Positions 7,030 to 24,829 of a stretch of DNA of 64,000 nt are shown here, in pieces. Source of the DNA: Rivularia sp. PCC 7116 (GTDB lineage: Bacteria > Cyanobacteriota > Cyanobacteriia > Cyanobacteriales > Nostocaceae). The stretch spans positions 6,510,001 to 6,574,000 of the forward strand of contig NC_019678.1 of NCBI RefSeq assembly GCF_000316665.1. The letters run 5' to 3'. A program made the position numbers and the translations under genes. Numbering within the stretch: position 1 is the stretch's first letter; every line of letters begins with the position of its first letter. The notes beneath the pieces are model-generated. The model did no database searches. It worked only from the letters and a program-made list of their open reading frames with translations, and was not told the origin of the DNA.

Positions 7030-7826
7030 AGGAATTTTGGGGGAAGTATCGCGGTAAAGTTACCGGTAGCAAAGACCCCTTACATTTAGGCAGGGTGCAG
7101 ATAGAGGTTCCGGCAGTGTTGGGAGAAGGGCGCAAAAGTTGGGCTATGCCCTGTACGCCTTATGCAGGTAAGGATATTGGTTGGTTTACTGTTCCACCTG
7201 TAGGAACAAATATTTGGGTTGAATTTGAAGGAGGAGACCCCGATTATCCGATTTGGTCTGGTTGTTTCTGGAATGAAAACGAACTGCCAAAAAATGCCCA
7301 GGTGGATGAACCAGATAAAGTACAGGTATTTAAGACTGATGGCGTTACTGTTACGATTAGTAATTTAGGCAGTAATAAAGGCTTAACCATTGAAGTTGAT
7401 AAACCCGTAGTCAAGCGCAAGCTGAAAATGGTTTTTAATGCCGATGGGATTGAAATTAATAATAAAGATGAGACAGTAGTTAAATTAACCGCAGATATTA
7501 TTGAATCAAATAATCAGGAAAATTCTACTATTACTGTTACTAAAGATAATATTCAACTTAAAGAAAATTCTGTCGAAATCAAGCTGACATCTAATAGCAT
7601 CGATTTAATTGATAATCCCTCAACTATAAAATTAACTACATCGGGAATTGAATTAGCCAATAATCCAGCCAAAGTAAAAATCGCACCGGCAGCGATTGAA
7701 CTCAGCGACACTCCCGCAACCACAAAAGTTGCTCCTTCCGGAATCGAAATGAGCATGGGTGCAGCTAGCGTTAAACTTTCCCCCGTCAGCGTCAATGTTA
7801 ACAACGGAGCCTTGGAGGTGATTTAA
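7026..7826 (+). CDS. Baseplate assembly protein V / spike (gp5-like OB fold plus beta-helix)
   Basis: This 266-residue protein has an OB-fold N-terminus (residues about 1-95: GKVTGSKDPLHLGRVQIEVP, then VPPVGTNIWVEFEGGDPDYP), as in gpV/VgrG spike proteins. Residues about 110-260 are a regular Ile/Lys-rich repeat (EIKLTSNSIDLIDNPSTIKL and relatives) with a period of about 18 residues. This probably forms the trimeric beta-helical needle. It overlaps the gpD gene by 4 bases and the PAAR-like gene by 1 base (TAATG), so hub, needle and tip are made together. Confidence 0.9.
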   Translation: MKEFWGKYRGKVTGSKDPLHLGRVQIEVPAVLGEGRKSWAMPCTPYAGKDIGWFTVPPVGTNIWVEFEGGDPDYPIWSGCFWNENELPKNAQVDEPDKVQVFKTDGVTVTISNLGSNKGLTIEVDKPVVKRKLKMVFNADGIEINNKDETVVKLTADIIESNNQENSTITVTKDNIQLKENSVEIKLTSNSIDLIDNPSTIKLTTSGIELANNPAKVKIAPAAIELSDTPATTKVAPSGIEMSMGAASVKLSPVSVNVNNGALEVI

Positions 7827-8295: not shown

Positions 8296-8655
8296 ATGCA
8301 GCAGATTAATTATCCATTTTTGATTGATAATCGCGGTAGGATAGCGTCTCCGGATTATAACCAGCATATTCGGCAGATGATTGAGCAGGTGTTGTTTACT
8401 TTTCCTGGTGAGAGAGTGAATCGTCCAGATTTTGGCACTGGTTTACAACAGTTGATTTTCGATCCTAATGGTGGTGAATTAGCTGCTGCAACTCAGTTTT
8501 TGGTGCAGGGTGCTTTGGAGCAATGGTTGGGAGATTTAATTGAGTTAGAAGCGGTAGAGGTGGAAAATCAAGATTCTAAGTTAACGGTGACTATTCAGTA
8601 TATTGTGAAGCGTACTCAAGAACAGCGATTGGAAGAATTTTCTCGTGAAATTTGA
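8296..8655 (+). CDS. gp25/GPW-family baseplate wedge protein (Afp9-like)
   Basis: This 119-residue protein matches the gp25/gpW family in length and key features: 'IRQMIEQVLFTFPGERVNRPDFG' (broken here by position: residues about 26-48), with the EPR-like core replaced by GERVNRPDFG, then LIFDP and a C-terminal beta hairpin (LTVTIQYIVKRTQEQ). The protein links the baseplate wedge to the sheath and starts sheath polymerisation in related systems. It lies between the spike group and the J-type proteins, as expected for an eCIS locus. Confidence 0.9.
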   Translation: MQQINYPFLIDNRGRIASPDYNQHIRQMIEQVLFTFPGERVNRPDFGTGLQQLIFDPNGGELAAATQFLVQGALEQWLGDLIELEAVEVENQDSKLTVTIQYIVKRTQEQRLEEFSREI

Positions 8656-8840: not shown

Positions 8841-11348
8841 ATGAGTACCCAATACTTATGCAAAAACCAACTAAGACGGGCTAAAGTCCTCAGTAAAAAT
8901 ATATTAAACGGAATTGATTATTTAGAGGTTGGAGCAGATAGGAAAACACTGCTTGTATATTTTTTACATAATCTTCCGGGTGTTGCTCAAGAAGATTCGG
9001 TACCTGCAAATTCCAATGCTTTAACGGCAGACAATATTTTAATTACTGGTGGCATAAGGGTTCGTAGTATTGTTGTTGAGTCTGTAACTTCGTTTGAGAA
9101 TCTTTTGACTGTAAGGGTGAGTGGTAATAGTGATTTTTCTACTTATACTCTAAAGTTAGTTGATTCTGATGGTATAACTGCTCCTAAAGGTTTTGATTCT
9201 CAACTTTCTCAGGTAGATTTTTCTTTCTGGGTTGAGGATAGAAGCGAGTTTGACTGTAAAACTCCGGATGCGCCAACGGAGAAACAACCACCTCCACCTT
9301 TTATTGATTATCTTGCTAAGGATTACGCTAGCTTTCGCCGTTTGATGCTGGATAGGCTGGCAGTTACCGTACCGGATTGGCAAGAGCGCAATCCCTCGGA
9401 TATTGGTATTTTGCTTGTAGAAATTTTAGCTTACGGGGCAGATCATCTCAGCTATTATCAAGATGCTGTGGCGACGGAGGCTTATTTAGGTACGGCTCGC
9501 AAACGGGTTTCGGTGCGTCGTCATGCGCGAATGTTGGACTATTTTATGCATGATGGTTGTAATGCTCGTGCTTGGGTTGTACTAGAGGTAGAATCTAAAT
9601 CTCAGGCTGATGGGTGTATTTTGCAGGCAGCCGTTAACAGCCTGAAACTACAAGAAAATAAAATCAAGACTCGTTTTTTAACAAAAATCAATTTAGCTAA
9701 AATTCAAGGGGAAAAAGATGATATTGGCGTGCGGATTAAGCCGGAAAAATACGAAGAATTATTAAATCAACAGCCGCAAGTCTTTGAACCGCTTCACGAT
9801 ATTACTTTATATGCTGAACTTAACAAGATTAATTTTTATACCTGGGATAACGAACAATGTCGATTACCCAAGGGAGCAACTAAAGCAACTTTAGATTTTT
9901 GCGATAAGCCACAACTTTGCAAACAGCTTGAAGGTAGGGTGCTAATTTTTGAAGAAGTTAAAAATCCTCAAAATGGAGATTGCTTTGATTTCGATCTGAC
10001 TCATCGTCATGCGGTACGGTTAACCAAGGTGACAGAAACTACAGACGCTCTTAACGATGATAGAAAATTATTGCTGGTGGAATGGGCGGTTGAAGATGCC
10101 TTACCCTTTGATTTATGGATTTCTAATTTAGATAGTAAAGGGGCGCAAATTGAAAATATTAGTATAGTTCGCGGTAATGTGGTTTTAGTGGATCGCGGTC
10201 AAACTGTAGAAGGTGATGATGCAGATTTGGGTACTGTTCCCCAACAGGGTAAGTACCGTCCTTTATTGCAATTTGGTCCTTTGACTCAACAAGGATACGT
10301 CCGGGATAATCGCGATTTATGGGTAACTTTTAACCCTGAAGCTTCTGCAACATCGGCAATGAATTGGGAAATGCGCGATGTGAAACCGAGTATTTCTATA
10401 TGGGAACTAGGAAAACGACAAATTCCCTGGTTTTCTCAGCAAGATTTACTTAATAGCGATAGATTTTCACGAGAATTTGTTGTAGAAACCGAAGACGATG
10501 GACGTACCTACCTGCGTTTCGGGGATAACCAGTTAGGAAAAAGACCGACACCGGGAACCAGCTTTCAGGCAATTTACAGAATTGGCAATGGTAAATTAGG
10601 TAACGTTGGTGCCGATACTATCAGCCATGTAGTTACCGATATTGATGGTATTACCAAGGTATACAATCCCTTACCAGCCCAAGGCGGTACCGAACCAGAG
10701 GCTATTGAAAAAGCCCGTTTGGATGCACCCCAAGCATTTCGTACCCAGCAACGCGCCGTCACTGCATCCGACTACGCTAACGTTGCACAACTTTACAAGG
10801 GTGTTAAGAAAGCAATAGCTAACCGCCGCTGGACGGGAAGTTGGTATACCATTTTTATAACTGTAGACCGAGAACAAGGGCTACCAGTAAATGAGGATGA
10901 AACTTTCAAGGATAATTTGCGTAATTTCTTGGAAAGCTTTCGTCTCGCCGCACACGATTTAGAAATTGAAGGTCCCCGCTATATTCCTTTAGATATAGCG
11001 ATGACGGTGCATTTATTACCCGATTATTTCCGTAGCAGCGTCAAAACAGCGCTTTTAGAAACTTTCAGTACTTCGGTATTATCCAACGGTAAATTAGGCT
11101 TCTTCCATCCTGATAATTTTACCTTTGGGCAACCAGTATATCTGAGTCAGGTTGTAACTACAGCCATGCAAATACCCGGAGTCAGTTCCGTTGAGTTAAC
11201 AAAATTTCAACGCTGGCAACAACCATCCAATCGGGAATTAGAAAACGGTCAAATTCCCTTTGATAGATTGGAAATAGCCCGTGTTGACAACAATCCTAAC
11301 GCCCCCGAAAACGGACAAATTGTATTCAATATGAAAGGAGGAAGGTGA
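8841..11348 (+). CDS. Putative baseplate assembly protein, J-like (Afp11-type)
   Basis: This 835-residue protein belongs to the 'putative baseplate assembly protein' family related to P2 gpJ/T4 gp6. It has the central motif 'DIGILLVEILAYGADHLSYY' (about residues 190-209) followed by TARKRVSVRRHARML. The conserved C-terminal block starts at 'QGGTEPEAIEKARLDAPQAF' and continues RAVTASDYANVA, the J-like signature. It probably forms part of the baseplate wedge ring. Unlike the next gene, it has no propeller inserts, so it serves as an internal control for the inserts there. The start at 8841 follows an AACTAAC repeat and has no clear ribosome-binding site. Confidence 0.88.
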   Translation: MSTQYLCKNQLRRAKVLSKNILNGIDYLEVGADRKTLLVYFLHNLPGVAQEDSVPANSNALTADNILITGGIRVRSIVVESVTSFENLLTVRVSGNSDFSTYTLKLVDSDGITAPKGFDSQLSQVDFSFWVEDRSEFDCKTPDAPTEKQPPPPFIDYLAKDYASFRRLMLDRLAVTVPDWQERNPSDIGILLVEILAYGADHLSYYQDAVATEAYLGTARKRVSVRRHARMLDYFMHDGCNARAWVVLEVESKSQADGCILQAAVNSLKLQENKIKTRFLTKINLAKIQGEKDDIGVRIKPEKYEELLNQQPQVFEPLHDITLYAELNKINFYTWDNEQCRLPKGATKATLDFCDKPQLCKQLEGRVLIFEEVKNPQNGDCFDFDLTHRHAVRLTKVTETTDALNDDRKLLLVEWAVEDALPFDLWISNLDSKGAQIENISIVRGNVVLVDRGQTVEGDDADLGTVPQQGKYRPLLQFGPLTQQGYVRDNRDLWVTFNPEASATSAMNWEMRDVKPSISIWELGKRQIPWFSQQDLLNSDRFSREFVVETEDDGRTYLRFGDNQLGKRPTPGTSFQAIYRIGNGKLGNVGADTISHVVTDIDGITKVYNPLPAQGGTEPEAIEKARLDAPQAFRTQQRAVTASDYANVAQLYKGVKKAIANRRWTGSWYTIFITVDREQGLPVNEDETFKDNLRNFLESFRLAAHDLEIEGPRYIPLDIAMTVHLLPDYFRSSVKTALLETFSTSVLSNGKLGFFHPDNFTFGQPVYLSQVVTTAMQIPGVSSVELTKFQRWQQPSNRELENGQIPFDRLEIARVDNNPNAPENGQIVFNMKGGR

Positions 11349-11514: not shown

Positions 11515-14500
11515 ATGACTAATTCAGATTCACCAAAACCAATTTACAACAGACCTGGATTGCCAGCTATAGTTTACCGCGTTGGTGACTATAATTCTTT
11601 TCGGCAGCGTTTGATATCGCAACTATCTAGCCAAATAGTACAAAGCGATACTCCATCGACACGCAGACCTCTGACAAGACTGACAACTCGTTCCAATGAA
11701 GATCCGGCGATCGCGCTTCTTGATGCTTGGGCTGTAGTTGCCGATGTGCTGACGTTTTACCAAGAGCGGATTGCTAATGAAGGTTATATACGCACTGCGA
11801 CAGAACGATTTTCGGTGTTGCAGTTGGCGCGTACTATTGGCTACGAGCTAAGTCCGGGTGTAGCTGCTAGTACTTATCTGGCATTTACTGTGGATGATGC
11901 TATTGAAAGCGTTACTCAAGCCATTGTTCCCCAGGGAACTCCGGTGATGAGTATTCCAACGACAGATGATGAAGTACCCCAAACTTTTGAAACTAGTGCC
12001 GAAATTCTGACGCATCTCGACTGGAATAGTATCCAGCCTAGGTTAAGTAAACCGCAGGTAATTGCTGAAAATATTAATCAAATTTATTTAGAAGGAACTA
12101 GTACCCAACTGCAACCGGGAGATTGGGTTTTATTAGTTGGCAATCAAGAACAAGATATTGAAACTTATTTACTTAATCTGACTGCTGTAGAATTATCGGC
12201 AGATAATAATTACACGTTAATTAGTTGGGAGAAACAATTACCGCAGGCTATTAAAAGTAGACTTCGCAATCCTGAAATTTTCGCTTTCCGCAATTCGGCA
12301 TCGTTATTTGGTAAAAATGCTCCCAATTGGGAAGATATGCCTGATGAAATTAAAAAGGCTGCTGGTGGTACGTTAGCTGGGGGTGTTTTTTGTAGCGAGG
12401 ATAATGGCAGTAATTGGATTTCTGTAAATGATAATTTAGCAAATACAGATATTCTTTGTCTCGCTGCATCTAGTAAAAACTTGTTTGCGGGTACTCCAGA
12501 TAGGGGAATATTTCGCTGGCAGGATGGTAAAAATTGGGAAGCAGTTAATGCTGGTTTGACTAACTTAAATATTCAAGCGCTTTATATTCAACCTGGGAAA
12601 GGATATATATTTGTTGGTACTCCGGGAGGTGGTGTTTTCCGCTCTAAGGATAATGGTGATAATTGGGTTCCGATTCATACGGGAAACGTGCAGGTACAAG
12701 GTAAAGGGGATAATAATTGGCAGTCTGTAAATACAGCTATTCCTAATACCGTTGTGCGTTCGTTATTAACTTATTCAACCACAACAAATTCAGGTACGGG
12801 GACAATTGAAAGTGAAGGTAATAATGTCAGCGGTGAGGGTACAGAATTTACTAGAGAATTTAATGTTGATGATACCATCACAGTAGGGAATGAAAGTAGA
12901 AGAATAACTGAGATTAATTCCGATGTTTCTTTACAAGTAGATAGTCCTTTTATTAGTAATTTAGCTTCTGGTACCTCTTTTACTACTCCTAACCGAGAAA
13001 TAAATTATATATTTGCTGGAACTGATAGTGGTGTTTATCGCTCTCAAGATGCAGGTAAAAATTGGATACCACAAGGTTTATTGGATGGATTATCTGATAG
13101 AGTAATTCGTGCTTTGACTAATGATGAAAGCGATATTTTTGCTGGCACTGATAATGGTATTTATCGTAGTAGTGATTATGGAAAAAACTGGCAGTCAAAA
13201 AGGTTGGAAGACGCAGATAATGTCTTTTCATTAATTAATTATCAACTAGGAGACAAAACTTATCTTTTTGCTGGCACGGATAATGGTGTTTATCGTTCTG
13301 AAGATGAAGGAGAAACTTGGACAACTTTTAACAATGACTTACCAGAAAATATCACAGTTTATGCTCTAGATAGCGATGATACAAATTTATTCGCCGCTAC
13401 TAATGAAGGTATATTTACTTCTACAAATAACGGCGACTCTTGGCAAGAAATTAATCAAGGTTTAACTAAAACTAATATTACTTCTTTAGCTGTTAATCAT
13501 AAAATATTTGCCGGTGCTTTATTTTCAGGGTTTAAAGAAACAGAGTGGTTGGATTTTGAAGTTACGCAACCGGAAATTGATTTAAATACCATTTATCCCA
13601 AAATTTTAGAAAATAGCTGGATTGTTTTATTAAATGAAAATCTGTTTCAAGCTGTTCGAGTAAACAAGGTATCTACTGATTCTGTTAGTAAATTCAATTT
13701 AACATCGGAAGTTACGCAAATTGCTTTTAATAATTCTGTTGATTTAAGCGGTTTTGGTAGACGGAATACTCAAGTATTAATTCAAAGCGAATCTTTAGCT
13801 TTAGCGCCGGAAGTTTTAACGGTGAGGATGCAGCAGGAGAATATTTTTCTTGACCCCATAAATAAAGATAAAATTTATCTGAGTAAATTTATTCCGGATT
13901 TGCAGTCAGATAAAACTTTGATTGTCAGCGGTAAGCATATCCGAGCTATCGCTGAAGATATTGGCGGCTTTTTTGTCTGGAATGCTGATGAAAATAAATG
14001 GCAGCGCCATAATCAAGGTTTAACTAGTACCAATATTCAAGCTTTAGCTGTTGATGAAACAGAAAATGAATATCAATATTATATCGGCACCAGTCAAGGT
14101 GTTTTTCGTTATTTAGATAAAAATCAAACTAATAATCCAATTTGGGAACCTTTAAAAAATCAAGGTTTATCAGATACTGATATACAAGCACTTTGTATTC
14201 CCCAGACTAAAGAACTTTTTGCGGGTACTCCCAGCGGAATTTTTTACTATTCCGATAGCGGATGGGAAGCAAGGAATCAAGGATTGGTACATAAAAATGT
14301 GCAAACCTTGGTAAGTTATCAGGAAGGTGAAACTATTTCGATTTTCGCTGGAACTTTTGACGGTGGGGTTTTTGTTTCTCGGAATAACGGTGAGAGTTGG
14401 AATTCTACTGGTTTAACTAATGCCGATGTGCAAACTTTGGTTGTTAACACAGAAACTGGTGAATTATTTGCTGGCACTTTTCAAAAAGGTATTTTCCATT

Positions 14501-16461
14501 CTGATAATCAAGGTAATAGTTGGCAGCAGTTAACAAATATTGAAAGAGGTACGGGTACGATTTCCAGCGATAATATTACGGTTAAAGGTGCAGGGTTGAA
14601 TTCCCAACAGTTGCAGGTAGGGGATATTATTAATGCTGGGGGACAAACTCGGACTATTGTATCTATTAATAATGAAACCCAAATTATTACAGTTGATACC
14701 GCTTTTCGTCCCGATTTAGCCGAAAGAACTGCTTTTACGATTAATACGGGTTTAACTAATCTCAATATCACTTCGCTGTTGATTCTACCTCAAGAGCAAG
14801 AAACAATTTTGTTTGCTGGTACCGGTGGTAGCGGTGTTTTTCGTTCCCAAGATAACGGTAAAAGATGGCAGCAGGTTAATACAAATCTCCAAGATTTAGA
14901 AATTCGTACTTTAGTAAAGAATTCTAGCAATGAAATATTTTTAGGTACTGCTAGTAAGGGAATTTTTCATTCCGTTGATAATGGCGATTCTTGGCAAGCA
15001 ATTAACGATAATTTAACCAATACCGATATCAAGGCGATCGCTATTTCTTCTAACGATAATAAAGACAATATAATTGCTGGCGGCAATGGAATTTTAATTT
15101 CACAAGATGGTTTTTATACTGTTCCTTTAAATAAGAGCGATTTGCTTTGGGTGATATCGCCGCCAGTAAAAGAAAAATATCTTAAATGGTTGGTGAGAGA
15201 TATCAATGGTTTTGTAGGCAATATTGAAACCATCACCGATAAAGAACTTTTCTTACAGCCTGCCACGGAAGAAGATGGTATTGTCAGTGAAGTTTGTACT
15301 ATCAAAAAACCACCCACAGAGCAGCAAAATCCCGTCATAGTCTTAAAAAAACCTTTAAAATACGCTTACGATCCAGAAACAGTGACGATTTACGCTAACG
15401 TAGTAATGGCTACCCACGGTGAAACCGTTGTTGAAGTTATGGGAAACGGTGACGGTACTATACCCAATCAAAGCTTTATCCTCAAACAGCCGCCGCTTAC
15501 ATATGTACCTGCACCTACAGCCAGCGGTGCTAAAAGTACTTTGGAGGTGAGAGTTAACGATGTACTTTGGGAAGAGGTTGATACTTTATATGAAAAAGAT
15601 ACTCATCTCCAAGGTTATATTATCCGTTTAACTGACGATAATACTCCGGTAATTACCTTTGGAGATGGTGAAAATGGCGCTCGTTTGCCTACTGGGGAAG
15701 AAAATGTTAGCGCTACATATCGCAGCGGTATCGGTTTAGAGGGGCAAGTTGCTCCCGAAAGTCTGACTCAACTAAAAGATAAACCTTTGGGTATTCTTGA
15801 GGTGATAAATCCTTTATCTGCTTCTGGTGCTGCACCTCCGGAAAGTCGAGATGAAGCCAGAGAGAAAGCACCATCCCAAGTGCGTACTTTGGATAGAATT
15901 GTTTCTATACAAGATTTTGAAGACTTTTCTCGCGCTTTTGCGGGTATCGGTAAAGCTCAAGCTGTTCCTTTATGGAATGGGCAAAGTCAATTAGTACATA
16001 TTACTGTCGCTGCTGCGGATGGTTCCCAGGTAGATACAGATAGTAATCTTTATCAACAATTAGTTGCAGCAATTGATAATAATCGCGACCCCATTCAGTT
16101 TGTAGAGGTGGATTCCTACGAGCTGCAATTGTTTAACGTTGAAGCAAAATTGCAGTTTAATCCCCGCTATCAGCAAGAATTACTAATTGAAAATGTGACT
16201 GCATCTTTAAAGGCTAAATTTACCTTTAGCAATCGCAACTTTGGGCAAGATGTCACGGCTGCGGAGGTAATTGCTACCATTCAACAAATTGAGGGAATAG
16301 TAGCTGTGGATTTGGATGCTTTATATAAATTAGGTAGTAGTAAAGGCTTGCAGCAATCTTTGAAAGCTGATTTAGCTCGCTGGGATGAAGAAAATGATAT
16401 TGCTAAACCAGCCCAGTTGTTATTGATAAATCCTCAAGATATTAAATTAACTACGATATGA
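11515..16461 (+). CDS. Baseplate J-type protein with two inserted BNR/Asp-box propeller blocks
   Basis: This 1648-residue protein has a normal J-type N-terminus ('LLDAWAVVADVLTFYQERIA', about residues 69-88) and a normal J-type C-terminus (ITFGDGENGARLPTG, then ESRDEAREKAPSQVRTLDRI). Two long blocks interrupt the matrix: about residues 284-672 and 812-1205. Each has many copies of 'F-A-G-T-x-x-G-V-x-R-S-x-D-x-G-x-x-W', the BNR/Asp-box hairpin of beta-propellers such as Ycf48 and sialidase-like folds. Each block also has one 'GTGTIxSxGxxVxGxGTxF' beta module. Matrix sequence resumes between the blocks (IYPKILENSWIVLLNENLFQ). The J parts should sit in the baseplate; the propellers are probably surface-exposed binding modules. 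The next gene has a similar block. Confidence 0.85.
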   Translation: MTNSDSPKPIYNRPGLPAIVYRVGDYNSFRQRLISQLSSQIVQSDTPSTRRPLTRLTTRSNEDPAIALLDAWAVVADVLTFYQERIANEGYIRTATERFSVLQLARTIGYELSPGVAASTYLAFTVDDAIESVTQAIVPQGTPVMSIPTTDDEVPQTFETSAEILTHLDWNSIQPRLSKPQVIAENINQIYLEGTSTQLQPGDWVLLVGNQEQDIETYLLNLTAVELSADNNYTLISWEKQLPQAIKSRLRNPEIFAFRNSASLFGKNAPNWEDMPDEIKKAAGGTLAGGVFCSEDNGSNWISVNDNLANTDILCLAASSKNLFAGTPDRGIFRWQDGKNWEAVNAGLTNLNIQALYIQPGKGYIFVGTPGGGVFRSKDNGDNWVPIHTGNVQVQGKGDNNWQSVNTAIPNTVVRSLLTYSTTTNSGTGTIESEGNNVSGEGTEFTREFNVDDTITVGNESRRITEINSDVSLQVDSPFISNLASGTSFTTPNREINYIFAGTDSGVYRSQDAGKNWIPQGLLDGLSDRVIRALTNDESDIFAGTDNGIYRSSDYGKNWQSKRLEDADNVFSLINYQLGDKTYLFAGTDNGVYRSEDEGETWTTFNNDLPENITVYALDSDDTNLFAATNEGIFTSTNNGDSWQEINQGLTKTNITSLAVNHKIFAGALFSGFKETEWLDFEVTQPEIDLNTIYPKILENSWIVLLNENLFQAVRVNKVSTDSVSKFNLTSEVTQIAFNNSVDLSGFGRRNTQVLIQSESLALAPEVLTVRMQQENIFLDPINKDKIYLSKFIPDLQSDKTLIVSGKHIRAIAEDIGGFFVWNADENKWQRHNQGLTSTNIQALAVDETENEYQYYIGTSQGVFRYLDKNQTNNPIWEPLKNQGLSDTDIQALCIPQTKELFAGTPSGIFYYSDSGWEARNQGLVHKNVQTLVSYQEGETISIFAGTFDGGVFVSRNNGESWNSTGLTNADVQTLVVNTETGELFAGTFQKGIFHSDNQGNSWQQLTNIERGTGTISSDNITVKGAGLNSQQLQVGDIINAGGQTRTIVSINNETQIITVDTAFRPDLAERTAFTINTGLTNLNITSLLILPQEQETILFAGTGGSGVFRSQDNGKRWQQVNTNLQDLEIRTLVKNSSNEIFLGTASKGIFHSVDNGDSWQAINDNLTNTDIKAIAISSNDNKDNIIAGGNGILISQDGFYTVPLNKSDLLWVISPPVKEKYLKWLVRDINGFVGNIETITDKELFLQPATEEDGIVSEVCTIKKPPTEQQNPVIVLKKPLKYAYDPETVTIYANVVMATHGETVVEVMGNGDGTIPNQSFILKQPPLTYVPAPTASGAKSTLEVRVNDVLWEEVDTLYEKDTHLQGYIIRLTDDNTPVITFGDGENGARLPTGEENVSATYRSGIGLEGQVAPESLTQLKDKPLGILEVINPLSASGAAPPESRDEAREKAPSQVRTLDRIVSIQDFEDFSRAFAGIGKAQAVPLWNGQSQLVHITVAAADGSQVDTDSNLYQQLVAAIDNNRDPIQFVEVDSYELQLFNVEAKLQFNPRYQQELLIENVTASLKAKFTFSNRNFGQDVTAAEVIATIQQIEGIVAVDLDALYKLGSSKGLQQSLKADLARWDEENDIAKPAQLLLINPQDIKLTTI

Positions 16462-16466
16462 ACAAA

Positions 16467-16596
16467 TATAGCGAATTTCAGTTGAGCAGAATAGACTATT
16501 ACCTCACCCAGCCCTCCGGGCACCCCTCTCCTTATAAAGGAGAAGGGAAAAGTCAAGAGAATCGCTGTATTGTACCCAACAGAAAACTGCGATATA
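16467..16596. repeat. Palindromic repeat element (MITE-like), copy 2
   Basis: The left arm TATAGCGAATTTCAGTTGAG (from 16467) pairs imperfectly with the right arm ending GAAAACTGCGATATA. The right arm contains TGTATTGTACCCAACAG, the reverse complement of an arm of the element at 8717-8809. A second CCTCTCC/GGAGAGG hairpin follows at about 16626-16650. The element fills most of the 227-base gap between two baseplate genes. Confidence 0.65.
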
Positions 16597-16688
16597 AATC
16601 AAGCTTAAATTCTCCTCTAAGACACACCTCTCCTTAACAAGGAGAGGGGAAGGGGTGAGGTTTTTCATGTTGACTACCTACCGATATT

Positions 16689-19600
16689 ATGAACCAGCAT
16701 TCATCAGTAGAAAGATTGTATAATTTACTTCCAGCTATTTACCGGATTCGAGACGAAGCTCAAGGGCAGCCGTTGAGAGCGTTGTTGGCGATCGCTGCTC
16801 GGGAAATGCAAGTTTTGGAGGATGACATAGACAATCTCTATGAAAACTGGTTTATTGAAACTTGCGATGAATGGGTAGTACCTTATATTGGCGACCTTTT
16901 AGACGCTCAGGAATTATACGCACAAAATAGTATTAATTATGGTCAGCAGCAGCGACGAGCTTATGTTGCTAACACCATTGCTTATAGAAGACGTAAGGGT
17001 ACTGCTCCTGTATTAGAGCAGTTAACGCGAGATGTTACCGATTGGCGAGCAAGAGCGGTAGAATTTTTTCAGCGTTTGGCTACTACTCAGAATTTAAACC
17101 ATCTACGCCCTAATAATACGACAGTTAATTTAAATCAGTCTGGGCAACCGGAATTTTTGGGTACTCCCTTCGAGCAACAGGTTTCCTACAGTATCAATAT
17201 TGGTGATGCCTTAGAAGGTAGGGGATTTCACAATATACCCAATATTGGTTTATATATTTGGCGGTTGCAAAGCTATCCAATGGAGAAAGCTACGGCAAGG
17301 ATGGTTGAAGGTGGTGAAGTTGATGGGCGTTATTATTTTAGTTGTCTTGGTTTAGAAGACTTTCCTTTATTTAACCAGCCGCAAACTGAAACGGATATTT
17401 TGCATCTAGCTGAAGAAATAAATGTTCCAGCAAAGTTGCGTATTCCACCTTTGAAGAAGGAGATAGAGAATTTATTAAATAAAAAAGAATCCAGCAATAA
17501 TATTGGTTATTTTGATGCGACTCCGGTATTAGAAGTTTTTGTCGATGGGGAAGAATCATCAATTCCTCCGAAAGAAATTTTGATTGCTCCATTGAAGGTA
17601 GAGGATAATAATGATTGGATGTCGGTAAAATGGAATGATTTTGATTCTAATATAAGGGTAGCAATCGATCCAGAATCCGGAAGATTGGCTTTTCCTCCTT
17701 CGCAGTTACCTAGTGAAGTGGAGGTGAGTTATTTTTACGGTTTTAGTGGGGATATTGGTGGTGGCTCTTACCAAAGAAATTTATCGCAGGAAAGTTGTGT
17801 TTGGGAAAGGGAGATTTACCAAGAAAGTTTGGGTAGGGTAATTCAGAATTGGAATGCTTCTGTAGAAGTTTGGAAGTGTTTGCAGCAGGGTAATGGTGTT
17901 GCACTTGGGGAAATTTTTGTTGGTGATTCTGTTTCTTTGCAAGATTATGGATTAAATAACCGCAGGGAAGCAGAGGGAAGAGATGATGAGAAGTTGCAGG
18001 TTATTGTGTCTGATGATGGCGTGATAACTGTTAAAGCTGGGATGGTTAGGGATGAAAATGACAATCCTATTTGTTTGGAAAATGATTGTCAATTGGATGT
18101 GAGCGCTTTTGCTGGAGAATCTTTAATTTTATTTATTACTCATCAACCTGGTTTGGGTTTACCAGATTTACGTGTGGTTAATCATGGTGCCGGGGATGGG
18201 TGGTTATGTTTGGGTGTTGCTTTAAAGGAAGTTTTTGAGAAAACGGAGTCGGTAATTTCGATTCCGGATAATAAAACTTATTTTGGCGATTTAACTATTG
18301 TGATTCCGGCAGATAAAACTTTGAAATTTATGGCTGCCGATGGTTTTCGTCCCCATTTATTAGGTAATTTGTACGTACAGGGGATAACTCCTTTTGGTAA
18401 TAATACTAAAAATATTAACAATCCCGGTGAGTTTATTTTAGAAGGTTTATTAATAGAAGGAAAGCTGACGGTATTACCGGGAAGCTTGAGAAGTTTGCAT
18501 ATAAATCACTGTACTTTAGTTCCAAAAGAAGGCGGGTTGAGGGTTGCAACTTGGGAAGTTGTAGAAGATGATGATAACAACGAAATCTCAGATGATAGTT
18601 GGACATTAATTGCGATCGCTATCTATTTTATTAATGCAATTCGCAGTTTAATCGGGAAGGGTACGCCAGGTAAAAGTTTTAATATATTGCTGAAAATAGC
18701 GATTAAGCAAGCACAATTGGTATTTTCCCAGTTTCGCGAGTTGATTCAATGGCGATGTGTGGATGAATATCCCGTTGCCGATGGTTGTTTGCAACCGGGT
18801 ATGAAAGATAGTCTGAATTATCAATTGGATAATTCGCGATTAACTATCAGCATCTATCGGAGTATTTGCGGTGCCCTACATTTAGCTGAAACTGTTCCCA
18901 CTTTGTTGATAGAAGAAAGCATTATTGATAATAATTTGGGTGCAGATACAACTGCCGATATAGAAAAATTAGTTGCCATTGATGCTTCAGGTACTGCTGT
19001 AGAGCAGTTGCAATCAAGTACTGTTTTTGGCACAACTAAAGTACGTAGCTTAGAAGCCAGCGATAGCATTTTTACTGGTAGAGTCACAACTTTACGCAAG
19101 CAAATCGGCTGTATGCGTTTCTGTTATCTTCCCGATGGCTCCCAAACTCCCCGCCGTTATTTATGTCAGCCGGATAAAGCTTTAGCTGAAGAGTTTGATA
19201 TTAGTAAATTACCATCTGCTATTACTTGTTTAACAATAAATAAAATTGATTCTTCTCATCATCAATTAATTTCCGGTACTTCTGGTAAGGGTTTATTTTC
19301 TTATCAAATTAATCAAGATAATCAAAATCAATGGCAGCCGATAAATAAAGGTTTAGATAATTTCAATATCACGACTTTATTTTATCAGGAACAAGAAATC
19401 TATGCTGGCACAATTGGCGGTGATGTTTTCCGCAGTCAAGATAATGGTAATTCCTGGGAAAGTATTAATCACAAAGAAGAAATAGAACCCAAAAAAGCAA
19501 CGGGTACAATTTCTAGCGCTGGAAGAATCGTAAAAGGAAATAAAACTAATTTTATCCAAGAATTGAAAATTGGCGATATTATTACCGCTAACGGACAAAA

Positions 19601-20852
19601 AAGAATTGTCACTCAAATTGATTCCAATTATTTCTTCTGTGTTAATACTCCCTTCGAGCCAAGTTTAGATAATGTTGGATTTAGCATAAGTAATTTAATT
19701 TTAAACACAGATATTACCGCTTTCGCAGTGCATGAATCAACTATCTTTGCTGCAACTGCTAGAGGTGGTGTTTTTGGGTTCTTAAAAGAACCAGATAAAC
19801 CAGAAGAACCAGAAAAATGGACTGCCGTCAATGTTGGCATCACAAATCTTAATGTCACATCATTAATAGCGGGTGAAGATGGTTATATCTATGCAGGAAC
19901 TTATGGAGGTATTTTTCGTACTCGCGATCCCGGTGAAGGGTGGTTGGCTATCAGTTTTGGTTTAGAAAACTTGGAAATTACAGCTTTAACAATAGATGTC
20001 ACCAGACAGTTATTCGCCGGTACATCAGGGGGAGGAGTATTTCGTTTTGATGAATACAGTAATATTTGGACTGCGGTAAATGATGGTTTAAGCAATTCTT
20101 ATATTACAGTTATGGCGGCAAGCGGTCAAAGGTGTGATGGTACTGTAAGCAGCGAGGGTAATAAATTAAATGGAGAAAACACCAATTTTACAGCGGATTT
20201 TCTTGGTAGAAGTATAACCGCAACCGGACAAACTCGCACCGTAACAAAAGTTGTATCTACCACAGAAATTATCGTTGACGAATCATTTTGTCCCGAATTA
20301 CCAGCAGAAACAATTTATTCCTACGAGAAATTTTTAGTAGTAGGAACAGTTGGTGGGAGTATTTTTTATTCTGTTAATAGTGGAGAAACTTGGCAACAGG
20401 TTAACGCTGGTTTGAGCGATACGGATGTCAGCGATTTGGTTATTATTCCCTCAGTTGAGGAAGCAGGGAGCAGGGAGCAGGGAGCAGGGGGAGAAGAAAG
20501 AAATAATAGCGATCGCGCTATTTTTGTGGGGACAACTGCGGGTAATATCCTCTGCTTATCCGACGATATGCAAACATGGAAATCGCTTAATAGCGGCTTG
20601 GTAAATGTCGAAGATAAGCTGCGGGTTTTATCAAAAATACAGCCTAGATTTACTTCTAAACAATATGGCAACCCTGCCTACGCTCAACTAAGTCAAAATT
20701 GCGCTGTAGAAATTCGTACCGGTGCAGAAGACGGTTCCGAAATGGGAGTATTTAGTTATTTAAAGCAACCGCAACGTCAAGCAAATTTAGAAGCTAGTCT
20801 AAAAGAGTACTTGCGATTCGGTTTGAAAGTAGGCATTTTTTACGAGACATAA
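16689..20852 (+). CDS. Phage tail protein I-type baseplate protein with inserted propeller block
   Basis: This 1387-residue protein starts with the P2 gpI-like tail-protein domain (LYNLLPAIYRIRDEAQGQPL, then ETCDEWVVPYIGDLL). It ends with the family's conserved C-terminus (NPAYAQLSQNCAVEIRTGAE, then LKEYLRFGLKVGIFY). Between about residues 847 and 1310, exactly at the junction between 'YLCQPDKAL' and 'IQPRFTSKQYG', lies a block of BNR/Asp-box repeats (AGTIGGDVFRSQDNGNSWES and relatives). It carries two 'GTISSxGxxVKGNxTxF' modules like those of the preceding gene. A stretch at about 20459-20500 translates a tandem repeat (SREQGAGGEE). The matrix is probably a baseplate component; the block looks like a modular graft. 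Only 11 bases separate it from the fibre gene. Confidence 0.85.
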   Translation: MNQHSSVERLYNLLPAIYRIRDEAQGQPLRALLAIAAREMQVLEDDIDNLYENWFIETCDEWVVPYIGDLLDAQELYAQNSINYGQQQRRAYVANTIAYRRRKGTAPVLEQLTRDVTDWRARAVEFFQRLATTQNLNHLRPNNTTVNLNQSGQPEFLGTPFEQQVSYSINIGDALEGRGFHNIPNIGLYIWRLQSYPMEKATARMVEGGEVDGRYYFSCLGLEDFPLFNQPQTETDILHLAEEINVPAKLRIPPLKKEIENLLNKKESSNNIGYFDATPVLEVFVDGEESSIPPKEILIAPLKVEDNNDWMSVKWNDFDSNIRVAIDPESGRLAFPPSQLPSEVEVSYFYGFSGDIGGGSYQRNLSQESCVWEREIYQESLGRVIQNWNASVEVWKCLQQGNGVALGEIFVGDSVSLQDYGLNNRREAEGRDDEKLQVIVSDDGVITVKAGMVRDENDNPICLENDCQLDVSAFAGESLILFITHQPGLGLPDLRVVNHGAGDGWLCLGVALKEVFEKTESVISIPDNKTYFGDLTIVIPADKTLKFMAADGFRPHLLGNLYVQGITPFGNNTKNINNPGEFILEGLLIEGKLTVLPGSLRSLHINHCTLVPKEGGLRVATWEVVEDDDNNEISDDSWTLIAIAIYFINAIRSLIGKGTPGKSFNILLKIAIKQAQLVFSQFRELIQWRCVDEYPVADGCLQPGMKDSLNYQLDNSRLTISIYRSICGALHLAETVPTLLIEESIIDNNLGADTTADIEKLVAIDASGTAVEQLQSSTVFGTTKVRSLEASDSIFTGRVTTLRKQIGCMRFCYLPDGSQTPRRYLCQPDKALAEEFDISKLPSAITCLTINKIDSSHHQLISGTSGKGLFSYQINQDNQNQWQPINKGLDNFNITTLFYQEQEIYAGTIGGDVFRSQDNGNSWESINHKEEIEPKKATGTISSAGRIVKGNKTNFIQELKIGDIITANGQKRIVTQIDSNYFFCVNTPFEPSLDNVGFSISNLILNTDITAFAVHESTIFAATARGGVFGFLKEPDKPEEPEKWTAVNVGITNLNVTSLIAGEDGYIYAGTYGGIFRTRDPGEGWLAISFGLENLEITALTIDVTRQLFAGTSGGGVFRFDEYSNIWTAVNDGLSNSYITVMAASGQRCDGTVSSEGNKLNGENTNFTADFLGRSITATGQTRTVTKVVSTTEIIVDESFCPELPAETIYSYEKFLVVGTVGGSIFYSVNSGETWQQVNAGLSDTDVSDLVIIPSVEEAGSREQGAGGEERNNSDRAIFVGTTAGNILCLSDDMQTWKSLNSGLVNVEDKLRVLSKIQPRFTSKQYGNPAYAQLSQNCAVEIRTGAEDGSEMGVFSYLKQPQRQANLEASLKEYLRFGLKVGIFYET
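20459..20500. repeat. GGGAGCA short tandem repeat inside a coding region
   Basis: The heptamer GGGAGCA occurs in tandem inside the propeller block of the tail-I gene, in frame. The same repeat occurs in intergenic DNA at about 35930-35970. It codes for an AGSREQGAGGEE-like loop that interrupts no recognised repeat core. Confidence 0.75.
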
Positions 20853-20863: not shown

Positions 20864-23800
20864 ATGAAAGGAGATTTCACCAGGTTTACATTTAAACCAG
20901 AGAAACATTACACCAGCGTGTTAATGCAGCAGGGGCGGGTGCAGTTAGATGCCGATTGGAACGAACAAGCAAATATCCACGCTTATTTTAACCAGTCTAT
21001 AGCCCAAGATATGATTGGTAATTCCGGTGTTGCAAAAACTAGTGGTGGGTTTGAAATACAAATAATTGATAACAGCACGGATTTATTAATTACTCCCGGA
21101 CATATTTATGTTGATGGTATTCTTTGTGAATTAGAAGGGAATTTATTTGATGTTACAGAAAGAGTTAATATTCAAAGTAACCAAAAACAAATTGAATTAA
21201 AAAGTATATATATAGATAATCGTATTTTAGAAAAAGGAGAGTGGCTGGAAGTTGAATTAATAGATAAAAATAATAATAATCAACTTAGTAAAAAACAGTT
21301 GCAAATTCAAGAAGTTGATAAAAAAAATCAACTACTAACTTTTAGAAATACAGAAAATATTGATGGTGATATAAAACAACTGCGTCGGTTAACTACTTAT
21401 AATAATCAACCAGATTACCCCCAAGAAATACAAATCGATAGTAAAGACAATAGCAAAACTTTCGTAGAAGGAAAAAATTATCTTGCTTACCTAGATGTTT
21501 GGCAAAGAAACATTAGTGCAATAGAAGATAAAGACATTCGGGAAATAGCGCTACAGGGTTCAGATACAGCCACTCGTACAAAAACAGTTTGGCAGGTAAA
21601 ATTATTAGAGTTGGAAAATAATCATATCTCCAAACATAATTTGCATACTTCAACTAAATGGGAAGCATTAAAAAAACGTAATGTCTACCTCAACGTTGAT
21701 GATACAAATGCCTCCGGTGGTGAAGGAGGCTGGAAAAATCAACTGTACCGCGTAGAGATTCATAAAGGTAATCAAGAACAAGATAATTCAGCAGAAGTAA
21801 CCTTTAAATGGTCTCGAAATAATGGTGCTATAGTATTCCCAATTAAAGAAATTAAATCAGATTATATAGAAGTAAGCAATTTTAGTCGCGATATTTCCGA
21901 TTCCTTTAAATCCGAGCAATGGGTAGAAATTACCAATGATGTTCGAGAATTGCAAGGTGAACCGGGAACCCTGGTACAGTTAAGAAATATATCGCAAAAC
22001 AAATTATTTTATAACCCAGCCACAATAGTTAATGACTCTAGTGATTCGTCAACTTTTCCCCAAGGGCACAATCTAAAAATTCGCAGTTGGGATAGTAATC
22101 ATAGCAATAATCAAGACGCAATTCCTCTAAAATCTTCCGATCGGAAGGTTGTTTTAGAAAACGGCATTCAGCTAGAGTTTGAAGGCGATTCCTTTAAAAC
22201 TGGCGACTACTGGTTAATTCCAACCCGCGCAGTTAAAGTTAATAAGCATCATATTCAGTGGACTTTTGATAGTTCAGATAAACCCATACCGCAACCACCG
22301 GAAGGAATCGAACATCACTATTCTGCTTTAGCTTTATTATCTTATCAAAACAACCAATTAAATCTCGTAGAAGACTTACGAGAAACCTTTCCATCCCTAT
22401 CTAATTGCTTGGATAAAACAGGCGATATCATGACAGGTGCTTTGGAAATTCAAGATAATCTTTATATTACTGGTAAATCTAATCAAGATAATCAATATAT
22501 TCCCGGTAAAGTTGGTATCGGAACAAAAGAACCCCAACAAAGACTAGTTATTCTTGATAAAGATGATATTAAAGGTAGAGTCGCAATTGGTTTTAACGAT
22601 ACAGAACAAACTGCCGCTTTAGCAATTAAAGAGAACGTTGGTATTGGTTATTTTAATATACCAAAAACTACTGCTTTAGCAATTAACGGTAAAGTTGGTA
22701 TCGGTACAAAAGAACCCCAACAAGCATTAGTCATTCTTGATAAAGATGATATTAAAGGAAAAGTTGCTATCGGTTATAACAAAACAGGACAAAAAGCCGC
22801 TCTAGCAATTAAAGATAAAGTTGGTATCAATACAATTTTACCTAAGAGCGATTTAAGTGTATTGGGTAACGTTGCCATCGGCTCTACTAACTACACCGAA
22901 ATTGCTAACGCACCAGATAACGGCTTAATTGTTGAAGGAAATGTCGGTATTGGTAGCCCAAATCCCACCTCTGCAAAATTAGAAGTAAACGGTGATGTCA
23001 AGATTACCGGGGATAGTATTAAAAATACCAATAACTTTAAAATTATTGATACTCAAAATCAAGATTGGTTAAATATAAATCCCGATGCAGAATATCCCGG
23101 TATTGCCTTATATAATCCCGTGGCGATTTCCAAAGGTGGCTTAGTGATTGGGGAATTAACTAAAATATCTGATGGTGAACTTAAAGTTAGTAAAAATACA
23201 TTATTAGCAACAACATCTGGTAAAGTTACTATTGGCAATCTCCAACAAGTAAGCGAAAATACGCTGTTAGAAGTTGCCGGTAATACTATCATTGGCTCCT
23301 CATACATAGGCGATCGCGCAGCACCAGAAAATGGACTTTTAGTTGAAGGCAAAGTCAATATTGGCGATACGCCAAAAAATAATCAACCAGCCGAAAATGC
23401 TCAACTTTATACTCAAGGTGACGCTTATATAAGCAACAAACTTTATACAACTGATTTATCTGTCACGGGGAATATAGAACTTGGAGAATCAACCCAATTA
23501 TCCATTGCTGAATTAGAAGTTAGTAAAAGTGCTTTCTTAGCAACTGCATCAGGTAAAGTTGGTATCGGAACTCAACAAATACATAATAATACCTTCCTCG
23601 GAATAGCAGGAAATACTACCATTGGTTCATCTTATATAAATAGTAAAGCTGCACCAGAAAATGGTCTTTTGGTTGAAGGGAAAGTTAATATTGGCGATAC
23701 ACCAAAAGATAATCAACCAGCGGAAGATGCTCAATTCTATAATGAAGGTGATGCTTATATAAACGGCACGCTTTATACAAAAGATTTAAGCGTTATAGAC

Positions 23801-24829
23801 AATATCGAATTTGTAGAATCAACCCAATTATCTATCGCTGAATTAAAAGTTAGAAAAAATTCCTTTTTAGCAACTACTAGAAATAGTCAAGTTAGTATTG
23901 GTAGCCAGCGGAAGCCAAATACAAAAACTCTTATGGGAATTGCAGGAAGTACCACCATTGGTGAATCTTATATAAATAGTAAAGCTGCACCAGAAAATGG
24001 GCTTTTAGTTGAAGGAAAAGTTAGTATTGGCGGTACGATACCCCGAAATAATCAACAAGCCGAAGACGCTCAAATCTATACTGAAGGCGATGCTTATATA
24101 AACGGCACGCTTTATACAAAAGATTTAAGCATTACAGATAATGTAGAATTTGCAGAATCAACCCAATTATCCATTGCTGAATTAAACATTAGTAAAAATG
24201 CTTTCTTAGCAACTACTAAAAACAATCAAGTTAGTATCGGTACCCAGCAAAAGCCGAATGCAAAGACTCTTATGGGAATTGCGGGAAGTACTACCATTGG
24301 TGAATCTTATATCGATAGTAAAGCTGCACCAGAAAACGGTCTTTTAGTTGAAGGAAAGGTCAGTATTGGTGGTACTATACCTCGAAACAACGAAGCTAGA
24401 ACATCACAACTTTACGTTAAGGGCAACGCTTATATTAATGATACTTTGTTAACAGATACCATTGTCTATAACCAAATGATGCAGCGCTCTTCACAGCAGT
24501 ATAAAGATAATATTACCGAGCTTTCCATTCCAGAAAGTTTGCAAATATTAGAAGATTTAAAGCCTGTTAAATACAGTTATATAACAGATGAAACTAAAAG
24601 AATTCACGCTGGATTTATTGCCGAAAAATCTCCGGAAATTTTTACTTCTCCTGACAAAACAATGCTTAATTCCACGGGGATTATCGCAATATTAACCAAT
24701 GTATTAAAAGAACATATTCATACAAATTCTGCTTTGAATCGCGTCATTGCCAATCAGCAGCAAGAAATTGCTAACTTACGAAAAAGAGTAAATAAATTAG
24801 AAGAAAAAAATAATAAATTATTTTGGTAA
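20864..24829 (+). CDS. Tail-fibre protein: DUF6519 N-terminus, repeated shaft, S74 chaperone C-terminus
   Basis: This 1321-residue protein begins with a DUF6519 domain (MKGDFTRFTFKPEKHY, then VQLDADWNEQANI), a module found in phage-tail-like loci. Residues about 510-650 hold 'KVGIGTKEPQQ...LDKDDIKG' repeats. Residues about 770-1200 hold four units of about 105-110 residues (each with SIAEL..SK..FLAT, then AAPENGLLVEGKVSIG), at bases about 23170, 23500, 23830 and 24170. The C-terminus is an intramolecular chaperone of peptidase family S74 with the dyad Ser1209/Lys1214 in 'SSQQYKDNI' and a later Ser/Gly-rich 'RIHAGFIAE'. Such domains trimerise the fibre and then cut themselves off. A coiled coil ends the protein. 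It is likely the receptor-binding fibre or an attachment fibre. Confidence 0.87.
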   Translation: MKGDFTRFTFKPEKHYTSVLMQQGRVQLDADWNEQANIHAYFNQSIAQDMIGNSGVAKTSGGFEIQIIDNSTDLLITPGHIYVDGILCELEGNLFDVTERVNIQSNQKQIELKSIYIDNRILEKGEWLEVELIDKNNNNQLSKKQLQIQEVDKKNQLLTFRNTENIDGDIKQLRRLTTYNNQPDYPQEIQIDSKDNSKTFVEGKNYLAYLDVWQRNISAIEDKDIREIALQGSDTATRTKTVWQVKLLELENNHISKHNLHTSTKWEALKKRNVYLNVDDTNASGGEGGWKNQLYRVEIHKGNQEQDNSAEVTFKWSRNNGAIVFPIKEIKSDYIEVSNFSRDISDSFKSEQWVEITNDVRELQGEPGTLVQLRNISQNKLFYNPATIVNDSSDSSTFPQGHNLKIRSWDSNHSNNQDAIPLKSSDRKVVLENGIQLEFEGDSFKTGDYWLIPTRAVKVNKHHIQWTFDSSDKPIPQPPEGIEHHYSALALLSYQNNQLNLVEDLRETFPSLSNCLDKTGDIMTGALEIQDNLYITGKSNQDNQYIPGKVGIGTKEPQQRLVILDKDDIKGRVAIGFNDTEQTAALAIKENVGIGYFNIPKTTALAINGKVGIGTKEPQQALVILDKDDIKGKVAIGYNKTGQKAALAIKDKVGINTILPKSDLSVLGNVAIGSTNYTEIANAPDNGLIVEGNVGIGSPNPTSAKLEVNGDVKITGDSIKNTNNFKIIDTQNQDWLNINPDAEYPGIALYNPVAISKGGLVIGELTKISDGELKVSKNTLLATTSGKVTIGNLQQVSENTLLEVAGNTIIGSSYIGDRAAPENGLLVEGKVNIGDTPKNNQPAENAQLYTQGDAYISNKLYTTDLSVTGNIELGESTQLSIAELEVSKSAFLATASGKVGIGTQQIHNNTFLGIAGNTTIGSSYINSKAAPENGLLVEGKVNIGDTPKDNQPAEDAQFYNEGDAYINGTLYTKDLSVIDNIEFVESTQLSIAELKVRKNSFLATTRNSQVSIGSQRKPNTKTLMGIAGSTTIGESYINSKAAPENGLLVEGKVSIGGTIPRNNQQAEDAQIYTEGDAYINGTLYTKDLSITDNVEFAESTQLSIAELNISKNAFLATTKNNQVSIGTQQKPNAKTLMGIAGSTTIGESYIDSKAAPENGLLVEGKVSIGGTIPRNNEARTSQLYVKGNAYINDTLLTDTIVYNQMMQRSSQQYKDNITELSIPESLQILEDLKPVKYSYITDETKRIHAGFIAEKSPEIFTSPDKTMLNSTGIIAILTNVLKEHIHTNSALNRVIANQQQEIANLRKRVNKLEEKNNKLFW

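Follow-up and report, generated by a model that had tools for sequence, protein, structure and literature searches.

Predicted β-propellers in the wedge proteins of a Rivularia injection system

We analyzed 64,000 nt of DNA from the cyanobacterium Rivularia sp. PCC 7116 (NCBI RefSeq assembly GCF_000316665.1, contig NC_019678.1, positions 6,510,001 to 6,574,000 of the forward strand), referred to here as the window. Positions below are those of this whole stretch, and the eCIS genes and parts given with coordinates lie on its plus strand. The window carries an extracellular contractile injection system (eCIS) with three consecutive genes for baseplate wedge proteins. Two of these encode Baseplate_J/TIGR02243 proteins, J1 (8841–11348, 835 aa) and J2 (11515–16461, 1648 aa), and the third encodes a tail-I-type protein, TI (16689–20852, 1387 aa). 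Against TIGR02243 (cut-off 155.8 bits), J1 scored 290.2 bits and J2 249.9 bits, the latter split over two stretches. TI scored 16.4 bits against Tail_P2_I (cut-off 20.6) and 16.5 against TIGR02242 (cut-off 51.85), and its position and the gene order fit the assignment. In PHROGs, J2 matched baseplate families alone and TI gave no match.

J2 contains two inserts and TI one, each predicted to form a seven-bladed BNR/Asp-box β-propeller. Borders were set by alignment with insert-free homologues, which places the J2 site-1 insert at 12367–13530 (aa ∼285–672), the J2 site-2 insert at 13942–15129 (aa ∼810–1205) and the TI insert at 19224–20615 (aa 846–1309). A preliminary description of this DNA had put the same blocks at residues 284–672 and 812–1205 of J2 and 847–1310 of TI, within a few residues of our borders. 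It had also described the matrix as resuming cleanly after each insert. This holds for site 1 and TI, where the insertion points are clean loops in homologues, but less so for site 2, whose right edge falls at 1205 or 1241 depending on where the matrix is taken to resume. The neighboring 835-residue J1, described as insert-free, indeed gave no hit to the blade model introduced below and no propeller family in Pfam.

Evidence for the fold comes from two sources. In Pfam, J2 matched Sortilin-Vps10 (E=9.3e-26, 91 bits, cut-off 33), a Beta-prop model (1.4e-12) and BNR (3.8e-8, 32.6 bits, cut-off 27). Scores of the TI insert were below threshold (Vps10, 19.7 bits, cut-off 33, E=4e-4; BNR, 11.4 bits, cut-off 27), and a profile of the TI-insert family matched propellers in the PDB with a best E=2.8e-17. 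At E<=0.001, 22 distinct PDB sequences were matched by the site-1 insert profile, 27 by that of site 2 and 28 by that of the TI insert. Judging by their names, we take all of these to be propeller proteins; among them are sensor kinases, GH74 enzymes, Ycf48, sortilin and designed propellers. A blade model found six whole blades in each J2 insert, flanked on either side by a half-blade, and seven blades in the TI insert. Because this model was built from the same insert sequences, the independent evidence is that from Pfam and the PDB. Half-blades at both ends are the closure expected for a ring inserted in a loop with neighboring ends, and the repeat count of seven per insert lies within the six to eight blades of a closed ring. 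Together, these matches bear out the BNR/Asp-box propeller blocks of the preliminary description, as far as sequence can tell.

A second repeated element lies within the propellers. This ∼70-residue unit, with the pattern GTxxSxGxxVxGxGTxF, occurs four times in the window, as had been noted: once in J2 propeller 1 (12787–13005, aa 425–497), once in J2 propeller 2 (14545–14760, aa 1011–1082) and twice in the TI propeller (19491–19706, aa 935–1006; 20130–20336, aa 1148–1216). In one relative, J2 has up to 14 copies, nine in tandem; this 2894-aa protein (L081:8087-16771) also has at least 20 blade matches. At 12 loci the module appears in the gene after TI, which is shown to be a fibre gene at eight and taken as one by position at four, with some low scores among these matches. 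The window's own fibre has no copy. No fitting Pfam model was found for the module, and a search for a known fold returned no convincing PDB match, the best being ribosomal L6 at E=0.026. Calling the module SH3-like would be a guess from its sequence.

TI carries a further addition, a predicted hydrophobic hairpin of ∼57 extra residues (18582–18752, aa 632–688), which reads as a hydrophobic helix followed by an amphipathic helix. In the window, the first helix has a mean Kyte–Doolittle value of 1.62, borderline for a membrane helix. A hairpin model built from 11 sequences of the clade described below matched 21/21 propeller-bearing TIs (20 at E<1e-3, and L076 at 0.08) and the second half of a TI that is split at L072. 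Among the other TI frames it matched 0 of 62, a set in which nine are truncated or shorter than 500 aa. The hairpin is thus specific to the clade and a possible independent hint of membrane contact.

Surrounding genes of the locus

The plus-strand order is eCIS_core, CIS_tube (4656–5288), a Phage_base_V spike protein (7026–7826), a PAAR-like protein, a gp25-like sheath initiator (8296–8655), J1, J2, TI and a tail fibre (20864–24829, 1321 aa). The fibre has a Peptidase_S74 chaperone C-terminus and a DUF6519 N-terminus (172.1 bits, cut-off 22.4), which places it with the eBAP5 fibres. Genes for the sheath, a gp19-like tube protein and a T4-baseplate-like protein lie on the minus strand, ∼2–7 kb upstream of the window, so the locus uses both strands of this 8.7-Mb genome. 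An initial comparison of 21 loci, made up of the window and 20 selected matching regions, showed the order gp25–J1–J2–TI–fibre in every one. This is an eCIS of the two-J-plus-tail-I type.

The eCIS_core protein (128–4321) has a C-terminal match to the NS_2 nuclease family at 26.0 bits (cut-off 27) and is probable cargo. A second eCIS_core protein with an NS_2 match is encoded in a Crocosphaera metagenome-assembled genome (MAG; L067, 10503–12407), and in three Crocosphaera MAGs (L067:10503-12407, L066:17103-19967, L089:16916-17932) eCIS_core genes lie directly 3′ of J2. Such genes probably supply nuclease cargo in the propeller lineage. Just downstream of the eCIS genes, window positions 25685–31117 encode a 1810-aa hybrid of Ser/Thr kinase, AAA_16 ATPase, GAF and histidine kinase domains. 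Elsewhere in the genome there is a second CIS- or phage-like locus with a Tail_P2_I gene (L147, G000:C1:2128000-2147000); its J-type protein matches Streptomyces Cis11 (9gtp) at E=5.7e-59, AlgoCIS at 1.1e-9 and, weakly, Anabaena All3317 at 4.5e-8. On these matches, to class the locus as thylakoid-type would go too far. A further J-type frame of 772 aa lies at L148 (G000:C1:6325000-6342000).

The propellers are ancestral to a cyanobacterial clade

To place the inserts in the history of the locus, we used the best 80 of 556 matches from 84,980 species genomes as named loci, counting once ten loci that were present under two names. The counts that follow are of rows, several of them closely related, and not of events. 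A tree was built from 86 J2 cores with the inserts excluded; its bootstrap was not fully settled. L072, L075 and L137, in which a segment is missing, were left out, and L069 and L094 had no J2 with a middle segment. In this tree, 22 of the 23 propeller-bearing rows form one cyanobacterial clade with support of 100/98, the exception being L070. The nearest relative is Rivularia sp. MS3 (L058). Both J2 sites and the TI site are filled in 18 of the clade's 22 rows; site 1 is empty in two rows and site 2 in one, and TI is unavailable in the remaining one. TI was lacking from the data for six loci (L070, L074, L075, L077, L079 and L089). Wherever it was available, the state of J2 and TI agreed: TI has a propeller in 21/21 cases with a propeller-bearing J2, and its site is propeller-free in 52/52 cases with a propeller-free J2.

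Clade members include Leptolyngbya, the unicellular genus Crocosphaera, Nodosilinea and others, which rules out an origin confined to the window's family. At least 7 of 386 genomes in a phylum sample, the source genome included, had J2 matches (E<=1e-30; two candidates per genome were scored, so this undercounts). The N-terminus of TI, used as query against 60 genomes from the family, matched in 12 of them, at 13 places; five are long frames (1392–1612 aa) and eight are short (740–877 aa), and one genome has both kinds.

A second tree, of J1, was made by a quick method with 72 rows, leaving out 18 loci for which no J1 was available. Here the propeller clade comprises 24 rows and has a sister set of four with weaker support (90): L075 (a Chloroflexota MAG), L070 (Moorena) and two Nostoc loci (L093 and L127). 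In L075, site 1 holds BNR blades, and another propeller match lies at site 2, at the end of the contig; the branch of L075 is long and its contig is 10.5 kb, so misbinning is possible. In Moorena, site 1 alone is filled, and no TI lies within 9.9 kb downstream. The Nostoc proteins have no propeller and keep a module copy at site 1, which may be a remnant of a lost propeller. Two changes suffice on this tree, for example one gain and one loss.

Each insert has kept to its own site. The best out-of-genome match of every insert was an insert at the same site (22/22 for site 1, 22/22 for site 2 and 20/20 for TI). Blade-trimmed segments gave 64/64 again, and 47/47 (16, 16 and 15) with near-identical strains removed; the narrowest case was the L071 TI insert, at 113 versus 99 bits. 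These results show three orthologous domains rather than swapped cassettes, and rule out that the inserts were grafted recently or that J2 and TI exchanged cassettes. Nor was a phage source found: TI gave no match by tblastn in 50,697 phage records, and the one J2 relative confirmed on viral contigs is without blades. J2 was matched by 40 plasmid records, with no single place covering 80% of the protein.

We conclude that the propellers are old, lineage-wide and well maintained, being ancestral to this cyanobacterial clade. The idea of a modular set added to the baseplate stands in that relatives' baseplate proteins elsewhere lack the blocks (in 52/52 cases a propeller-free J2 goes with a propeller-free TI), but not in any sense of a recent or strain-specific addition. 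The preliminary description had named the presence of the blocks in all closest homologues as grounds for its refutation, and this applies in part: the closest homologues have them, and more distant ones mostly do not.

The J2 propellers evolve faster than their matrix

We compared conservation in 12 pairs, in which site 1 and site 2 were each missing once. The site-1 and site-2 inserts were less conserved than the J2 core in 11/11 pairs each. Between the window and Rivularia MS3, identity was 93% for the J2 core, 59% for the site-1 insert and 85% for the site-2 insert; the site-1 propeller is the most divergent between the two Rivularia, partly through insertions and deletions in the alignment. 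In most pairs, conservation of the insert-free J1 likewise fell somewhat short of that of the J2 core. Ratios of nonsynonymous to synonymous substitution rates (dN/dS) for eight J2 pairs were 0.10–0.48 in the inserts and 0.07–0.16 in the matrix (0.48 and 0.30 versus 0.15 for the window and Rivularia MS3). For six TI pairs they were 0.14–0.29 in the insert and 0.07–0.17 in the matrix. The J2 inserts thus evolve faster than the matrix and are under purifying selection; values in this range indicate that the domains are maintained.

Other propellers in J-type proteins

Propellers of other families occur in J2 homologues outside the Cyanobacteria. In a gammaproteobacterium (L084:10939-14814), J2 site 1 is filled by a WD40 propeller, which follows the same LFGxNA motif. 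An acidobacterial protein (L121:2780-7063) has seven DUF346-type repeats between J2 matrix segments, at another loop; DUF346 is a family that we take to be a lectin propeller. These two are the only ones with another propeller family in Pfam (E<=0.01) among 16 enlarged or odd J-type proteins that lack BNR blades, a set that includes eight proteins from 12 regions with some of the longest TIGR02243 frames. Non-BNR propellers in J-type proteins are therefore uncommon. TIGR02243 matches themselves were found in 80 of 400 genomes of the L075 phylum (E<=1e-20), 21 of 297 of the L121 phylum (1e-25), 26 of 369 of the L084 class (1e-30) and 6 of 40 of its order (1e-20); in the larger samples, two to three first-look candidates were scored per genome. 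Three further J2 homologues (L095:3400-7197, L077:1-3765 and L153:286-3846) have ∼430–490 residues between the N-terminal and middle matrix segments. No propeller family matched these stretches, and that of L077 resembles repeats of the local matrix segment.

Where do these sites lie in the wedge? A profile of insert-free J2 aligned with Streptomyces Cis11 (9gtp) confidently over residues 288–613 and very weakly (2.3 bits) over 71–126. Both J2 sites would fall between the two aligned blocks, in a region of ∼310 positions in J2 versus 160 in Cis11. The equivalent stretch of T4 gp6 would be ∼20 residues, by weak alignments (14.1 and 9.8 bits). As a lead rather than a mapping, the J2 sites seem to lie ahead of the J core, in a central stretch that simpler relatives have only in a short form.

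Possible roles of the wedge propellers

From the findings above and by analogy with known systems, we consider with moderate confidence that the propellers are short-range receptor modules, borne by the wedges, that bind the target and gate firing. In favor are the propeller matches of all three insert families in the PDB, the clean loops at site 1 and in TI, the orthology of the inserts by site, the faster change of both J2 inserts and the unrelated propellers in J2 homologues elsewhere. The wedge of the solved Streptomyces contractile injection system (CIS) consists of two J-type proteins and one tail-I-type protein (PMC12237407). If each wedge here likewise held one J1, one J2 and one TI, six wedges with three propellers each would give 18 propellers per particle. 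The DUF6519 fibre would catch the surface first; the propellers, presumably facing outward, would then bind a glycan or protein near that surface, and this binding would assist in opening the baseplate and setting the sheath free. In AlgoCIS, the J-type protein has extra domains that make up a cage; the cage includes two potential carbohydrate-binding modules and has been proposed to contact a secondary receptor before firing, and binding of the fibres to a resin did not trigger firing (PMC13314943). Beta-propeller lectins have been reported in eCIS fibres (PMC12923769). Of the two roles suggested in the preliminary description, anchoring or target binding, the latter is the likeliest.

Several observations weigh against such receptors. 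Single J2 sites are empty at L073, L076 and L040, within the clade, so neither site 1 nor site 2 is indispensable. For TI the contrast in rate is weak: in 8 of 10 pairs, conservation of its insert was below that of either matrix part, and the insert's dN/dS was clearly higher than that of the matrix in two of six pairs, higher by 0.01–0.03 in three and lower in one. Faster evolution of the inserts also fits relaxed constraint on spacer domains. In addition, a profile of insert-free TI found no relative in the PDB.

Some of the same data suit a purely structural elaboration, in which the propellers would be bulky spacers, or a cage that joins wedges or encloses the spike and cargo, and would bind no target. 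The extra domains of Alg11 and Anabaena Cis11 form a cage (PMC13314943, PMC8894136). Of the six whole blades of propeller 1, numbers 2 and 3 are the best conserved (0.55 and 0.65 identity with the window's sequence, versus 0.34–0.50 for the other four), as expected of a docking surface; the joint retention of TI and J2 propellers in 21/21 loci and the small excess in rate of the TI insert over its matrix point the same way. Yet spacers or cage walls sit poorly with J2 sites that can be empty one at a time within the clade, and with J2 inserts that change faster than the J2 core, and we regard this explanation as somewhat unlikely. An enzymatic role, in which the propellers would be glycoside hydrolases and remove a sheath of polysaccharide ahead of penetration, would appear very improbable from the sequence matches. 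J2 does exceed the cut-off of the NCBIfam model for F510_1955 family glycosylhydrolase (NF045728; 180.7 versus 175 bits), and GH74 xyloglucanases are among the PDB matches of the insert profiles. But the F510_1955 score is the sum of six stretches spread over two propellers, for a model of 246 positions, and the best xyloglucanase stretches span ∼50–200 profile positions rather than whole enzymes. Automatic annotation may accordingly misname such J2 proteins as glycosylhydrolase enzymes.

The propellers and the TI hairpin might instead fix the particle to the thylakoid or cytoplasmic membrane of its producer, as in the thylakoid-anchored CIS (tCIS) of Anabaena or the Streptomyces CIS. The hairpin accompanies the TI propeller without exception and is absent from the other TI frames, its first helix has the borderline hydropathy given above, and the Cis12 extension of tCIS has a putative amphipathic helix (PMC8894136). 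The hairpin keeps a membrane role in play. Against this, the tCIS chains (7b5h) in the PDB were matched neither by J2 and TI of the window nor by family profiles, whether of J2 or of J2 and TI homologues free of inserts. Anchoring of tCIS requires the Cis12 extension together with Cis13, a fibre-like protein that has a transmembrane helix (PMC8894136), and neither part is recognizable in the wedge and fibre proteins of the window. The window's fibre ends in an S74 chaperone and has no transmembrane-like stretch (best 19-residue hydropathy 1.11). Moreover, reports of the tCIS membrane helix are confined to filamentous cyanobacteria (PMC8894136), and the propeller clade includes MAGs of the unicellular Crocosphaera. 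On balance, we consider self-anchoring improbable, and the link to thylakoid-anchored systems through which the preliminary description raised a membrane-facing role finds no support from homology.

Returning to the receptor modules, a broader scenario can be sketched, which we offer as speculative and rather doubtful. The J2 loops would be a natural docking place for unrelated propellers (BNR in Cyanobacteria and a Chloroflexota MAG, WD40 in a gammaproteobacterium, DUF346 in an acidobacterium), and one old cyanobacterial lineage would have built from them a ring of 18 sensors with a membrane-touching TI hairpin, which senses the surface of the target and gives the signal to fire. What makes contractile injection systems fire is an open question. 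For AlgoCIS it has been proposed that fibre binding is insufficient and that a set of baseplate domains must meet a second receptor (PMC13314943). The loci described here form a natural series, with recognizable binding folds at fixed sites of wedge proteins and natural losses of single sites, which makes the control of firing testable. This series, and the convergence of unrelated propellers, are of more interest than the one strain. Members of the lineage can be recognized by a TI longer than 1300 aa with the hairpin; J2 length alone is insufficient, as lengths above 1200 aa are also reached by J2 homologues whose inserts are of another kind or unidentified.

Comparison with known systems

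In the open-access full-text literature, a scope that leaves out most subscription journals, no paper was found that describes propellers in baseplate proteins of a CIS. The main texts of the AlgoCIS and tCIS papers do not contain the word ‘propeller’ (PMC13314943, PMC8894136). A bnr/Asp-box gene reported in Nostoc cyanophages or a related prophage-like element is separate, apart from the baseplate genes (PMC4916379). Sequence comparison puts the inserts in the same repeat type and fold class as the propellers of Ycf48, sortilin Vps10, two-component sensors and GH74 enzymes. Those, in contrast, are free-standing, membrane or enzyme domains and are not known to be inserted in an injection machine.

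The closest solved J-type relative is that of the Streptomyces coelicolor CIS (9gtp; E=3.9e-17 with the insert-free J2 profile). Its wedge shares the composition of two J-type proteins and one tail-I-type protein, but a single 652-aa J-type protein is used twice, there is no conventional fibre and the system is cytoplasmic (PMC12237407), whereas the window encodes J1, J2 and a fibre. AlgoCIS, from Algoriphagus machipongonensis, resembles the window in bearing extra domains on its J-type wedge protein, reported to include two potential carbohydrate-binding modules (PMC13314943); its wedge differs in having one Cis11-type and one Cis12-type protein (PMC12237407). The Anabaena tCIS (7b5h) is likewise a cyanobacterial system with extended baseplate proteins, yet its wedge is built from a single Cis11 and a single Cis12 whose extra domains are different (PMC8894136), and no match to J2 or TI was found.

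In its fibre, the window agrees with the eBAP5/DUF6519 class of eCISs, where a DUF6519 fibre lies beside a tail-I-type adaptor; that class is tied mainly to Actinobacteriota (PMC12923769). Propeller lectins known from eCISs (eBAP3) are carried on fibres, whereas those of the window sit on wedge proteins (PMC12923769). The Rivularia locus is, in this comparison, a real, old and well-maintained elaboration of a known machine.

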